NCBI RefSeq assembly: GCF_023699475.1
Contig: NZ_JALXFV010000002.1
Location: 310,001 to 374,000 of the forward strand
Direction: 5' to 3'
DNA: 64,000 bases
From: Halomarina rubra
Lineage (GTDB): Archaea; Halobacteriota; Halobacteria; Halobacteriales; Haloarculaceae
Shown piece after piece: positions 21,369 to 53,046 of the stretch. Each line of letters starts with the position of its first letter. Position 1 is the first letter of the stretch. The notes under the pieces are model-generated. The model was given only the letters and a program-made list of their open reading frames with translations, had not been told where the DNA came from and did no database searches. A program made the translations under genes and the position numbers.

Positions 21369-21440
21369 TGGACTTGCCGGGATTTGAACCCGGGGCCTCT
21401 CCCATGCCAAGGGAGTGATCTGCCACTGATCTACAAGCCC
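21369..21440 (-). tRNA. tRNA-Ala, anticodon GGC
   Basis: 72 nt, no intron, 3' CCA not encoded. The acceptor stem GGGCTTG pairs with CAAGTCC and contains the G3:U70 pair, the identity mark of alanine tRNA. D arm GATC/GATC; anticodon stem CTCCC/GGGAG with loop TTGGCAT giving anticodon GGC; T arm CCGGG/CCCGG with loop TTCAAAT; discriminator A73. It reads alanine GCC (and GCU) codons. The 3' end faces the low-GC segment 16190-21368, consistent with use as an integration site. Confidence 0.95.
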
Positions 21441-21697: not shown

Positions 21698-22165
21698 ATG
21701 GCACGAATGCACACCCGCCGTCGAGGGTCGTCCGGTTCGGACCGCCCCACGGCAGACGAACCACCGGAGTGGAGCGACGTAGACGCCGACGCCATCGAAG
21801 AGCGCGTCGTGGACCTGAAAGAGCAGGGCCACGACCCCTCCCAGATCGGCATGAAGCTGCGCGACGAGGGCGTTCAGGGAACGCCGGTCCCCAACGTGAA
21901 GTTGGCGACGGGCAAGAAGGTCACCGAGATTCTCGACGAGAACGACGCTTCGGACGACCTGCCCGAGGACCTGCGGAACCTGTTCGAGCGGGCCATCCGC
22001 CTGCGCGAGCACATGGACGCGAACCCCGGCGACGCGCAGAACAAGCGCGCACTCCAGAACACGGAGTCGAAGGTCCGCCGTCTGGTGGACTACTACCGCG
22101 GTGACGTCCTCGCGGAGGACTTCAAGTACACGTACGACGTCGCCAAGCGACTCCTCGAGGAGTAA
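21698..22165 (+). CDS. rps15: 30S ribosomal protein S15
   Basis: A 155-aa archaeal/eukaryal-type S15 (longer at the N-terminus than bacterial S15). It starts MARMHTRRRGSSGSDRP, the family's conserved basic head, followed by PPEWSDVDADAIEERVV and the DPSQIGMKLRDEGVQG segment. The C-terminal S15 helices end in KVRRLVDYYRG. It binds 16S rRNA in the central domain. ATG 21698 is chosen because the conserved head begins there; the upstream in-frame stretch lacks similarity. It leads an operon with a RecJ-like gene, pcc1 and rps3ae. Confidence 0.97.
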   Translation: MARMHTRRRGSSGSDRPTADEPPEWSDVDADAIEERVVDLKEQGHDPSQIGMKLRDEGVQGTPVPNVKLATGKKVTEILDENDASDDLPEDLRNLFERAIRLREHMDANPGDAQNKRALQNTESKVRRLVDYYRGDVLAEDFKYTYDVAKRLLEE

Positions 22166-22171
22166 GCCGAC

Positions 22172-23290
22172 ATGTCCGCCGCCGACCACCCCGAGGACGC
22201 CTCGACCGCCAGTGACGTCGCCGCGCGGTGCCGTGACGCCGAGTTCGTCAGACTCGTCGCCACGCCCGACGGTGACGCGCTCGCGGCGACAGGCATCCTC
22301 GCCAGCGCGCTCGCTGCGCGTGACGTCGCGTTCCAGACGAGCGTGACATGGTGGCCGGCGACCGACTCGGAGGCCGACCTCACCGTCTCCGTCGGGGCGA
22401 CGGGCGGCGACGTGTCCCTCACGGACACGACGCTCGCGCCCGCCGCCGCCGACGTCGCGACCGAACTCGACGCCGACCCCGACGCGACGCTCGCGCTCGC
22501 GGGGGCCGTGGCCGCCGGGGACGACCCCGGCGAGCACGCCGCGCTCCTCGACGAGGCGGGTCTCGACCGCGACCCCGGCATTGCCGGACCGGCCGACGAC
22601 GTCGCAGACGCGATGGCACACACCACGCTGGCACACGCGCCGTTCTCGGGTGACCCCGAGGAGACCGCCCGCACACTCGCGGGCGTCGACCGCGAGGGCC
22701 GCACCCTCGCCTCGCTGTTCGCGCTCTCGGTGCTCGAAACCGGGGCGCGCTACGCGGGCGAGGCCGTCGAACGAGCGCTGCACCCGTACGCGCTCGCCGA
22801 CCGGTTCGCGATGGCGACGCTCGCGGGGTACGCCGACGTGCTCGACGCGACTGCCCGGGTCCGCCCCGGGACGGGCGTCGCACTCGCACTCGGCTACGAC
22901 GTCCGCGAGACCGCTCTCGACGGGTGGCGCGAACACGCTCGCACGGTCCACGGGACCGTCCGCGAGGCGACGTTCGCCCGCCACGACGGCCTCGTCGTCA
23001 CCGACGTGACCGACGAGGCGTCGGCGGCGACGCTCGGGTCGGTCGCGCGACTCGTTCGGGACTTCCGTTCGCCGGAACCGGTCGTTCTCGCCCAGTCGGG
23101 CGGGACGGCCGCGGTCGCGTCGGCCGAGACCGACGTGACGACCCTCGTCGCGGAGGCCGCGAGCGCGGTCGGCGGCGAGGCACGCATCCGCGCCGCGGAC
23201 GGCGTGGGCACCCCTGCGTGCGCACAGGTCCGCGTGGACGAGACGGAGATGGACGCCGTGGTAGCGGCGCTCCGGAGGGCGCTCCCGTGA
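22172..23290 (+). CDS. RecJ-like DHH-superfamily protein lacking the DHH motif
   Basis: 372 aa, 6 bp after rps15. The N-terminal motif VATPDGDALAATGILASALA at about residues 28-47 matches the first metal motif of archaeal RecJ/GAN proteins (usual form DxDG). The other metal-binding motif, Asp-His-His, cannot be found anywhere, nor a clear replacement. The C-terminal ~100 residues resemble the DHHA1 substrate-binding region in spacing, but the usual GG-H motif is reduced to a GG (SAVGGEARIRAADG). A non-catalytic, Cdc45/GAN-like partner of the replication GINS complex is one possibility. The conserved neighbourhood with rps15, pcc1 and rps3ae suggests a core information-processing role. Assignment to the superfamily is confident; function is not. 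Confidence 0.7.
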   Translation: MSAADHPEDASTASDVAARCRDAEFVRLVATPDGDALAATGILASALAARDVAFQTSVTWWPATDSEADLTVSVGATGGDVSLTDTTLAPAAADVATELDADPDATLALAGAVAAGDDPGEHAALLDEAGLDRDPGIAGPADDVADAMAHTTLAHAPFSGDPEETARTLAGVDREGRTLASLFALSVLETGARYAGEAVERALHPYALADRFAMATLAGYADVLDATARVRPGTGVALALGYDVRETALDGWREHARTVHGTVREATFARHDGLVVTDVTDEASAATLGSVARLVRDFRSPEPVVLAQSGGTAAVASAETDVTTLVAEAASAVGGEARIRAADGVGTPACAQVRVDETEMDAVVAALRRALP

Positions 23291-23571
23291 GCGACCCGAC
23301 GGACGCCCACACGGGCGACGCCGACCGCTCGGCGACCGAGACGCCACGCACCGCGACGGTGCGGGTCGCGTTCGACGACGCCGAGACGTCCGAACAAGTC
23401 GCCGCGGCACTCGCCCCCGACAACACGCCCGAGATGGAGACGCGTGTCGAAGGGTCGACGGTCGAGACGACCATCACCCGCGAGACGACCGGTGGCCTCC
23501 GGACGACAGCGGACGACTACGTCAGCAACCTACAGGTAGCACAGCAGTTGACCGACACGACACAACCATGA
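23287..23571 (+). CDS. pcc1: KEOPS complex subunit Pcc1
   Basis: A 94-aa small subunit of KEOPS, which with Kae1, Bud32 and Cgi121 makes the t6A modification of ANN-decoding tRNAs. GTG 23287 overlaps the RecJ-like stop. After an acidic head the Pcc1 fold reads TATVRVAFDDAETSEQVAAA, then TRVEGSTVETTITRE and a final helix, DDYVSNLQVAQQL. Pcc1 forms dimers that bridge Kae1 subunits. The other KEOPS genes are not in the window. The next gene, rps3ae, overlaps by 4 bp. Confidence 0.88.
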   Translation: MSDPTDAHTGDADRSATETPRTATVRVAFDDAETSEQVAAALAPDNTPEMETRVEGSTVETTITRETTGGLRTTADDYVSNLQVAQQLTDTTQP

Positions 23572-24203
23572 GCGAACGTTCAGTATCACGACGACGACAG
23601 GAGAAACGCTGGTACACCGTGCTCGCCCCGGAGCAGTTCGACCGGGCCGAACTCGGTGAGACCGTCGCCGACGAGACCGAGAAGGTCTACGGCCGAACCA
23701 TCGAAACCACCCTCGGCGAACTGCAGGGTGACGCGGGCGAGAACAGCACGAAGCTCACGTTCCGCATCAACGACGTGGGCTCGGACGCCGCGTACACCGA
23801 GTTCGTCCAGCAGGAGCTCACGCGGGACTACCTCCGTAGTCTCGTCCGCCGCGGCTCCTCGAAGATCGCCGCGTACGTCACGGTCCTCACGACCGACGAC
23901 TACCGCGTGCAGGTCCAGCCCGTCGCCTTCACGACGAAGAAGGCCGACCGCAGCCAGGAGCACGCCATCCGCAAGCTGATGATCGAGCTCGTCGAAGAGG
24001 CCGCCACCGAGCGGACCTTCGAGGACCTCGTCGACAGCGTCACGGAGGGGCGACTCTCCTCGGCCATCTACGGCGAGGCCAAGACCATCTACCCGCTGCG
24101 CCGCGTCGAGATCCAGAAGCTTCGTCTCGAAGCGCGACCCGAAGAGGTCGCCGAAGAGGAAGAGACGAGCGTCGACGTCGACGACGCCGACGTCGAAGTC
24201 TAA
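23568..24203 (+). CDS. rps3ae: 30S ribosomal protein S3Ae
   Basis: A 211-aa archaeal/eukaryal ribosomal protein (eS1 family) on the small-subunit platform. Family features: basic N-terminus (MSERSVSRRRQEKRWYTVLA), FDRAELGETVADE, the KLTFRINDVGSDAAYTEFVQ region near residue 65, RRGSSKIAAYV near 103 and KIYPLRRVEIQKLR-like sequence near the C-terminus (IYPLRRVEIQKLR). The acidic C-terminal tail is typical of haloarchaeal versions. It ends the rps15 operon, converging on the halocyanin gene across 71 bp that contain a short T-run (ATTTTCT) suited to termination. Confidence 0.97.
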   Translation: MSERSVSRRRQEKRWYTVLAPEQFDRAELGETVADETEKVYGRTIETTLGELQGDAGENSTKLTFRINDVGSDAAYTEFVQQELTRDYLRSLVRRGSSKIAAYVTVLTTDDYRVQVQPVAFTTKKADRSQEHAIRKLMIELVEEAATERTFEDLVDSVTEGRLSSAIYGEAKTIYPLRRVEIQKLRLEARPEEVAEEEETSVDVDDADVEV

Positions 24204-51555: not shown

Positions 51556-53046
51556 ATGAGTACCCGGCTCGTTCTGGGCTGTGGGTCGTTCGGGCACGCC
51601 CTCATCGAGGAGTTGCGCCAGACGCCCGGCGACCTGCACGTCGTCTCGGGCGACGAGGGGCGCGTCGACTCGCTGCGTGGCGAGAACGTCCCCGCCGAAC
51701 TCGGTGCTTACGACGACCCCGCCGTCGTCGAGGAGGTGAAAGCCGAGGACCTCCCGACGGTCGCCAGCGTCGTCGTCGCCGGTGACGACCCGGACCGGAA
51801 CCTCGCGGCCATCGAGGTCGCTCGCGAGCACTATCCCGACGTCCCCGTCGTCAGCTACGTCGGCCGCGACGGCACCGACGCCCAGCGCGAAGCGCTCGAA
51901 GCCGCCGCCGACCGACTCGTCGACCCCGCCGACATCGTCCCCCAGCGCATCCTCCAAGCGGCCGGTCGCGGCGGCCTCCGCCTCCGACAGCTCCACCGCA
52001 TCGTCCGCGAGCTCGACGGACCGCTCGCGGTCGTGATGCACGACAACCCCGACCCCGACGCCATCGCCAGCGCGTGTGCGCTCGTCCAGATCGCCGAGAA
52101 CGCCGGCGGCGAGGCCGAGCCGTGTTACTACGGCGAGATCTCCCACCAGGAGAACCTCGCGCTGGTCAACCTCATGGAGTACGACCTCACCAACCTCCAG
52201 GCGGGGGACGACCTCTCGCGGTTCGCGGGGTTCGCCCTCGTCGACCACTCCCGACCGGGCGTCAACGACCAACTGCCACCCGACACGCCCGTCGACATCG
52301 TCGTCGACCACCACCCGCCCCGAGAACCCATCGAGGCGCGGTTCGTCGACCTCCGCAGCGACATCGGTGCGACGAGCACGCTGCTCACCGACTACCTCCG
52401 ACGGCTCGACGTCGAACCGACGACGCCCGTCGCGACGGGGCTTCTGTTCGGCATCCGTATCGACACGAAGGACTTCCGCCGGGAGGTGAGCGTCGACGAC
52501 TACGAGGCGGCGTCGTACCTCCTGCCGTACGCCGACACCGCGACCCTCGAACGCGTCGAGTCGCCCTCCGTCAGCGTCGACACGCTGGAGACCGTCGGCC
52601 GGGCGATTCGCAACCGCGAGGTCCACGGCGAGGTGCTCACCTCCTGTGTCGGGCGGCTCCACTCCCGGGACGCGCTGGCGCAGTCCGCAGACCGCCTGCT
52701 CGACCTGCGGGAGGTGACGACGACGCTCGTCTACGGGTTCAAAGACGGCACCATCTACATGTCGGCGCGCACTCGCGGCACCGACCTCGACGTCGGTGAG
52801 ACGCTCCGGGAGGCGTTCGCTCAGATCGGCGAGGCGGGCGGGCACGCCGACATGGCGGGCGCACAGTTGCCGCTCGGCTTGCTCGGCACGGTCGAGGAGG
52901 ACGCCGACGAGGACCTCTCGTCGGTCATCGCCGACGTGGTCACCGACCGGTTCTTCGAGACGCTGCGCTCGCGACCGAACTGGGACCTCGTGGACATCTA
53001 CGGCGGCGGCGGCGAGGAACTGCCCGTCGGGGCCGACGAGGAGTAG
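51556..53046 (+). CDS. TrkA-N / DHH-DHHA1 phosphoesterase fusion
   Basis: 496 aa. Residues 1-130 are a Rossmann TrkA-N (RCK-type) domain starting LVLGCGSFGHALIEELRQ. From about 150, a DHH phosphoesterase follows with VVMHDNPDPDAIASACALVQ, ALVDHSRPGVND and the hallmark VVDHHPPREP near 250. A DHHA1 domain ends with AGGHADMAGAQLPLG near 430. The complete motif set predicts a Mn-dependent phosphodiesterase acting on cyclic dinucleotides, nanoRNA or similar, gated by nucleotide or c-di-AMP binding to the N-terminal domain. Members with this architecture are found in haloarchaea; the substrate is not established here. Confidence 0.85.
   Translation: MSTRLVLGCGSFGHALIEELRQTPGDLHVVSGDEGRVDSLRGENVPAELGAYDDPAVVEEVKAEDLPTVASVVVAGDDPDRNLAAIEVAREHYPDVPVVSYVGRDGTDAQREALEAAADRLVDPADIVPQRILQAAGRGGLRLRQLHRIVRELDGPLAVVMHDNPDPDAIASACALVQIAENAGGEAEPCYYGEISHQENLALVNLMEYDLTNLQAGDDLSRFAGFALVDHSRPGVNDQLPPDTPVDIVVDHHPPREPIEARFVDLRSDIGATSTLLTDYLRRLDVEPTTPVATGLLFGIRIDTKDFRREVSVDDYEAASYLLPYADTATLERVESPSVSVDTLETVGRAIRNREVHGEVLTSCVGRLHSRDALAQSADRLLDLREVTTTLVYGFKDGTIYMSARTRGTDLDVGETLREAFAQIGEAGGHADMAGAQLPLGLLGTVEEDADEDLSSVIADVVTDRFFETLRSRPNWDLVDIYGGGGEELPVGADEE

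Follow-up and report, generated by a model that had tools for sequence, protein, structure and literature searches.

The 64,000-nucleotide stretch of Halomarina rubra DNA analysed here (the window) carries on its forward strand a four-gene operon in which two ribosomal protein genes and a KEOPS subunit gene surround a member of the RecJ family. The operon begins with rps15 (S15; 21698..22165), whose stop codon lies 6 nt before an ATG-start open reading frame of 372 aa (22172..23290), confirmed among the ORFs of the window. We call this gene recJ2, an inactivated RecJ/GAN/Cdc45-like gene of the arCOG00428 type, from its ORF, family searches, genome survey, alignment, tree and profile. Its stop overlaps by 4 nt (GTGA) the GTG start of pcc1 (23287..23571), which encodes the KEOPS subunit, and the pcc1 stop overlaps by 4 nt (ATGA) the ATG start of the rps3ae open reading frame (S3Ae/S1e; 23568..24203). 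All three neighbours were recognised from sequence and gave Pfam/NCBIfam matches above cut-off, and recJ2 lies between rps15 and pcc1-rps3ae, as a preliminary description of this DNA had placed it. The only tRNA gene found in the window, tRNA-Ala (GGC; 21369-21440), lies on the opposite strand immediately before the operon. A second DHH-family protein, a 530-aa open frame that scores 40 bits with Pfam DHH, is also present within the window (52027-52455).

Family identification

Pfam returned no match to the RecJ2 protein up to E = 1, and the only direct family hint came from the NCBIfam RecJ_archaeal model, which matched residues 14-58 with E 3.2e-4 and a score of 19.7 bits, where the cut-off is 360. 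The second NCBIfam row, a histidine-biosynthesis isomerase (E 0.021), was taken as a chance match. When a profile of 23 RecJ2 orthologues was searched against the PDB, it matched GAN (5ghr, E 4e-6) and other archaeal RecJ proteins over the same N-terminal stretch; the same search gave no sequence match to Cdc45. The H. rubra genome contains one copy of RecJ2, and a Pfam DHH search of that genome found five other places, including the active paralogue RecJ1 (G000:C12). By its class, its locus and its motif loss, the window protein is haloarchaeal RecJ2 (arCOG00428). The observation made in the preliminary description was correct, but the family is known and has been in print since 2012, when Makarova, Koonin and Kelman described the S15-RecJ-Pcc1-S3 neighbourhood with the inactivated arCOG00428 proteins of Halobacteria within it (PMC3307487). 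The RecJ2 of Haloferax volcanii has likewise been placed in arCOG00428 (PMC10470531).

Loss of the catalytic motifs

In GAN and RecJ the active form of motif I is xxSHxDADGxTSAG, and its H-x-D-A-D-G core reads T-P-D-G-D-A in the window RecJ2. The remnant, VATPDGDALAATG (residues 29-41; 22256..22294, + strand), keeps two Asp in the alignments and has lost the His and the DADG context. On the same strand, the motif II remnant LTVSVGAT (residues 70-77; 22379..22402) has VSVG for CDLG and so retains the Gly but not the Asp in the alignment, and the motif IV remnant (residues 111-115; 22502..22516) reads GAVAA where intact relatives have GAIGD. The place aligned with DHH (residues 85-87; 22424..22432, +) reads DTT, in a loop of uncertain alignment where another alignment has a gap. 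There is no C-terminal GGGH. The loss is therefore wider than the preliminary description had recognised, since motif II, motif IV and GGGH are gone in addition to DHH.

That DHH is missing holds well beyond this protein: neither DHH nor GGGH was found in any of the 89 RecJ2 sequences examined (0/89 for each), a set that includes one second copy located outside the operon (L091). Both motifs were present in 4/4 operonic proteins of families f5 and f14, in 12/12 outgroup operonic proteins and in 7/7 RecJ1 proteins. The N-terminal metal motif had been described as recognisable, and in the window protein it is; in an 84-row alignment, from which duplicates (L079, L082, L083, L095) and copies cut by contig ends (L080, L094) were dropped, it proved vestigial, decaying among relatives to forms such as DATGEALAAT and HTSGAAVAAA, with the Asp pair not kept across the family. 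Given this decay, the motif is no working half-site maintained by selection.

We also weighed the possibility that RecJ2 is still a nuclease, acting through a rearranged metal site. Both motif I Asp are kept in the window protein, and the Asp at residue 35 is found in about 95% of 22 species. Set against this are the decay of motif I in relatives and the complete loss of the motif II Asp, DHH, the motif IV Asp and GGGH; with all remaining ligands lost, a hidden second metal site is unlikely, and we regard a surviving nuclease as very improbable indeed.

Distribution, synteny and selection

When the 145 genomes of the class were searched with the window protein, 144 gave a match, covering 58 of 59 genera. 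S15, RecJ, Pcc1 and S3Ae occurred in that order on one strand at 89 of 98 non-duplicate loci. The nine exceptions were two loci cut by contig ends (L080, L094), the second copy L091, three loci of family f11 without recJ (L137-L139) and three of family f14 in which S3Ae is not adjacent (L147-L149). NG86 estimates of dN/dS were 0.12-0.36 in 15/15 pairs, comprising 14 RecJ2 pairs and one active pair (L147/L148), and RecJ2 is under purifying selection. These values, together with the presence of the gene in 144/145 genomes, rule out an artefact of a high-GC genome or a spurious open frame. In families f15 (L143, L144) and f16 (L145, L146) RecJ2 lies at the same locus with 25-34% identity and no traceable catalytic motif. 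The extra RecJ2-like gene L091 (G023:C5) is 35% identical and lies outside the ribosomal operon of its genome, which carries the operonic copy as well. At another locus (L093, in G085) RecJ2 extends across two frames, of which the first continues into pcc1; this may represent a frameshift, a sequencing error or a fusion. No relative of RecJ2 was found in the viral contigs scanned.

The single genome of the 145 without a RecJ2 match (G021) has, in the same place, a 435-aa frame with every motif (L036:3950-5254). A full-motif operonic nuclease of GAN type is also present in three f14 genomes (L147, L148, L149), and the fourth f14 genome (G163) contains a C-terminal piece with GGGH beside a pcc1-like frame. 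Three of these genomes could be named: G148 is Halorutilus salinus F3-133, and G158 and G154 are the MAGs Ods01 and Ods02. Ordosarchaeia fall within the Halorutilales/Afararchaeaceae, and cited work has them as sister to Halobacteria (PMC13082222). A profile of the Halorutilales and G021 proteins aligned with GAN almost end to end (E 1.3e-29). Within the library searched, we found no literature report of an intact operonic recJ in Halorutilales.

Family f11 differs again. All three of its loci (L137, L138, L139) retain rps15-pcc1-rps3ae and have no recJ between rps15 and pcc1, and the RecJ2 profile found nothing in 4/4 genomes, which are 58-78% complete. The active paralogue RecJ1 is present in all four. 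Two of the four have a GINS-like match, one of them over the Pfam cut-off; its absence from the others means little, because the match of H. rubra itself to that family is weak. That f11 keeps a GINS-like gene and RecJ1 without RecJ2 indicates that some members of the order can do without RecJ2. With genomes of 0.9-1.1 Mb and a locus GC of 37-40%, f11 is probably Hikarchaeia, which have about 1.2 Mb and 40-42% GC (PMC7599335).

Gene tree and timing of inactivation

For the gene tree we used 54 rows, namely 24 of the 82 haloarchaeal RecJ2, seven proteins of families f12, f13, f15 and f16, the four active operonic proteins, 12 of 29 outgroup loci and seven RecJ1. L091 is labelled there as inactive operonic but is really the second copy outside the operon. 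Within the short locus covered for each of the 12 outgroup rows, S15 or Pcc1 was recognised beside most of them; neither was for L133 and L136. Inactive RecJ2 formed a single clade (100/100) with a long stem (1.63), within which the position of the long-branched f15 and f16 copies is unsure. The active operonic proteins formed a clade (94/89) sister to inactive RecJ2, the two jointly supported at 99/96, and both sit among the operonic GAN proteins of other families, with RecJ1 separate (100/100). This topology has to be read with the long branches, the compositional bias and a bootstrap that had not settled, and an AU test did not reject a clade of RecJ2 with RecJ1 (p 0.114). RecJ2 is an orthologue of operonic GAN by synteny and by the tree, synteny being the stronger argument; the operon shared with active GAN supports the same orthology.

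A species tree from ribosomal proteins S15 and S3Ae left the base of the order unresolved, the outgroup branch being very long and the root falling inside the haloarchaea. From it we retained a single result, the grouping of the active-locus genomes (100/98), and took the branching order from published work (PMC13082222). Given the active syntenic sister in G021, Halorutilus and Ordosarchaeia, inactivation of RecJ2 probably occurred on the haloarchaeal stem. Dating the inactivation by intact relatives, and the loss in f11, are what the present analysis adds; they bring into sharper focus, but do not decide, which RecJ serves as Cdc45 in haloarchaea.

Conservation by region and predicted structure

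The region aligned with the CMG-interacting domain (CID) of GAN and its linker helix spans approximately residues 143-265 (22598..22966, +), with limits inferred from the alignment. Across 22 species this region had the highest mean identity in RecJ2 (0.469, compared with 0.402 for the DHH domain and 0.342 for DHHA1), while RecJ1 of the same species gave 0.703 for DHH, 0.669 for CID and linker and 0.632 for DHHA1. The ratio of CID and linker to DHH was accordingly higher in RecJ2 (1.17, 0.98-1.34) than in RecJ1 (0.95, 0.87-1.05), with 96.5% of 200 bootstraps in agreement, a modest shift in that the 95% intervals overlap and the domain limits come from the alignment. The CID faces the helicase in GAN and Cdc45 (CID as described in PMC5484177), and judged from these sequences the shift would fit a constraint moving from catalysis to the helicase-facing part, as modest evidence.

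An AlphaFold2 model of the window RecJ2 was poor (pLDDT 58, pTM 0.46, with stretches 103-158 and 173-213 under 50). Its input had nine rows, the window protein and eight others, and since GAN-type rows were among them, a match to the GAN fold is agreement and not independent proof. With this low-confidence model, GAN and archaeal RecJ matched best, followed by bacterial RecJ and Cdc45: the best 18 Foldseek matches listed were all archaeal RecJ/GAN (top E 2.8e-11), and VIA-align ranked GAN first (Z 13.1), ahead of bacterial RecJ (12.3) and the Cdc45 chains (about 10-11.6), the differences being small. The motif loss and the predicted fold both support the earlier view of a RecJ-superfamily protein that has lost its catalytic site, as Cdc45 has.

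A probable non-catalytic Cdc45-type subunit

We consider the best explanation, with a probability of roughly 60%, to be that RecJ2 is a non-catalytic subunit of Cdc45 type in the CMG complex, the structural role that Makarova et al. proposed for the inactive arCOG00428 proteins of Halobacteria (PMC3307487). RecJ2 would descend directly from GAN, the nuclease encoded in this operon and the archaeal equivalent of Cdc45, and its catalytic site and the substrate motif of DHHA1 would have disappeared on the haloarchaeal stem; the model suggests that the DHH/CID/linker/DHHA1 architecture may have been retained, and the protein would bind GINS and MCM and act at the fork. Evidence for this role comes from the near-universal presence of the gene, the operon that surrounds intact GAN-type genes outside the class too, the tree, the dN/dS values, the conservation of the CID and linker, the fold match to GAN and, from the literature, the proposal of Makarova et al. 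and the reported non-essentiality of the other RecJ proteins in H. volcanii; the locus evidence in particular points to RecJ2 as the haloarchaeal Cdc45. Several findings speak against it, among them the f11 genomes without RecJ2, the modest size of the conservation shift and the AU result. RecJ2 also evolves fast, with regional mean identities of 0.34-0.47 versus 0.63-0.71 for RecJ1, and the f15 and f16 copies are hardly recognisable, which would be odd for such a protein. The crenarchaeal counterparts are likewise reported to be very divergent (PMC3307487).

The alternative that we take most seriously, although we judge it unlikely, is that active RecJ1 (arCOG00427) serves as the Cdc45/GAN of the haloarchaeal CMG, so that RecJ2 was freed, lost catalysis and took another role, for example by partnering or regulating RecJ1 or some other complex. 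RecJ1 exceeds the family cut-off (NF053576) in 145/145 genomes of the class, its regions are conserved at 0.63-0.71 identity, and a 2020 review names it the best GAN candidate by arCOG (PMC7776575). Family f11, with RecJ1 and a GINS-like gene but no RecJ2, favours RecJ1 as Cdc45, and the complex of inactive RecJ4 with active RecJ3 in H. volcanii (PMC10470531) offers a model for a RecJ2-RecJ1 pairing. Yet the GAN locus is occupied by RecJ2 and not by RecJ1, and RecJ1 is reported as non-essential in H. volcanii, in unpublished work cited in PMC7776575. According to the same review, RecJ1, RecJ3 and RecJ4 are non-essential there even when combined (also cited as unpublished), RecJ2 is the open case, and the identity of Cdc45 in H. 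volcanii is an open question. The distribution of RecJ1 was useless as a discriminator, RecJ1 being universal too. On its family assignment the sources differ: Makarova et al. describe Halobacteriales as without arCOG00427 (PMC3307487), yet RecJ1 scores over the NF053576 cut-off throughout the class and a 2023 mBio paper places it in arCOG00427.

Cotranscription had been said to tie the protein to core translation or replication. The operon is real, and its conservation and the 4-nt overlaps in the window could be taken to mean that RecJ2 works together with S15, S3Ae and KEOPS in translation or in the modification of tRNA; for the active proteins, Makarova et al. list a function in translation among the possibilities (PMC3307487). 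By itself, however, the operon shows no tie to translation or KEOPS, because active GAN shares the identical arrangement and its known partner is GINS. In archaea the S15-Pcc1-S3Ae context is ancient and holds for the gene of active GAN as well (PMC3307487), with which the outgroup loci in our survey agree. In Halorutilales, moreover, S3Ae no longer adjoins Pcc1 while recJ remains, and comparison of the predicted structure revealed no ribosome- or RNA-binding domain in RecJ2 beyond a DHHA1/C-Ala-like fold. We therefore regard a role in translation or tRNA modification as improbable.

Returning to RecJ2 as a non-catalytic CMG subunit, we tentatively suggest, at somewhat less than even odds, that the locus preserves a series of states. 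Halorutilales and G021 would show the active GAN, the remaining haloarchaea the inactive RecJ2, and the Hikarchaeia-like family, which keeps GINS and RecJ1, the absence of the gene. If this series is true, the CMG nuclease was switched off within one archaeal class, separately from what happened in eukaryotes and Crenarchaeota, and RecJ1 stands in as Cdc45 in f11. Halorutilus salinus is in culture, and its active operonic gene would provide a ready-made 'before' state in which to ask whether its RecJ still joins GINS and cuts DNA, and which properties disappeared or arose with the death of the haloarchaeal copy. The repeated loss of the built-in nuclease by CMG helicases would thereby become open to test.

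Comparison with known systems

The window protein matches haloarchaeal RecJ2 of arCOG00428, as described by Makarova et al. (2012) and in H. volcanii, in class, operon and inactivated DHH domain, and we found no difference from it. Haloarchaeal RecJ1 (NF053576; G000:C12 and L005 in H. rubra) is a paralogue of the same superfamily and equally universal, but it has active motifs, lies outside the operon and is far more conserved. The operonic RecJ proteins of Halorutilus salinus (L152), the Ordosarchaeia MAGs (L151, L153) and G021 (L036) occupy the same locus and are sister to RecJ2 in the gene tree; the H. salinus protein, at 369 aa, is about as long as the 372-aa window protein, but unlike RecJ2 all of these have every motif intact (HADADG, CDLG, DHH, GAMGD and GGGH). 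GAN (arCOG00427_II, e.g. Thermococcus kodakarensis, PDB 5GHR/5GHS) shares with RecJ2 the place in the operon, a weak N-terminal sequence match and, by the low-confidence model, the predicted fold and probably the domain order; it is an active exonuclease with every catalytic motif, whereas the window RecJ2, about 100 aa shorter, has none intact. Eukaryotic Cdc45 (5DGO) and crenarchaeal RecJdbh, the latter inactivated independently (Makarova et al. 2012, PMC3307487), resemble RecJ2 in the RecJ fold, as predicted for RecJ2, in having lost catalysis and in the place proposed for them in the CMG complex.
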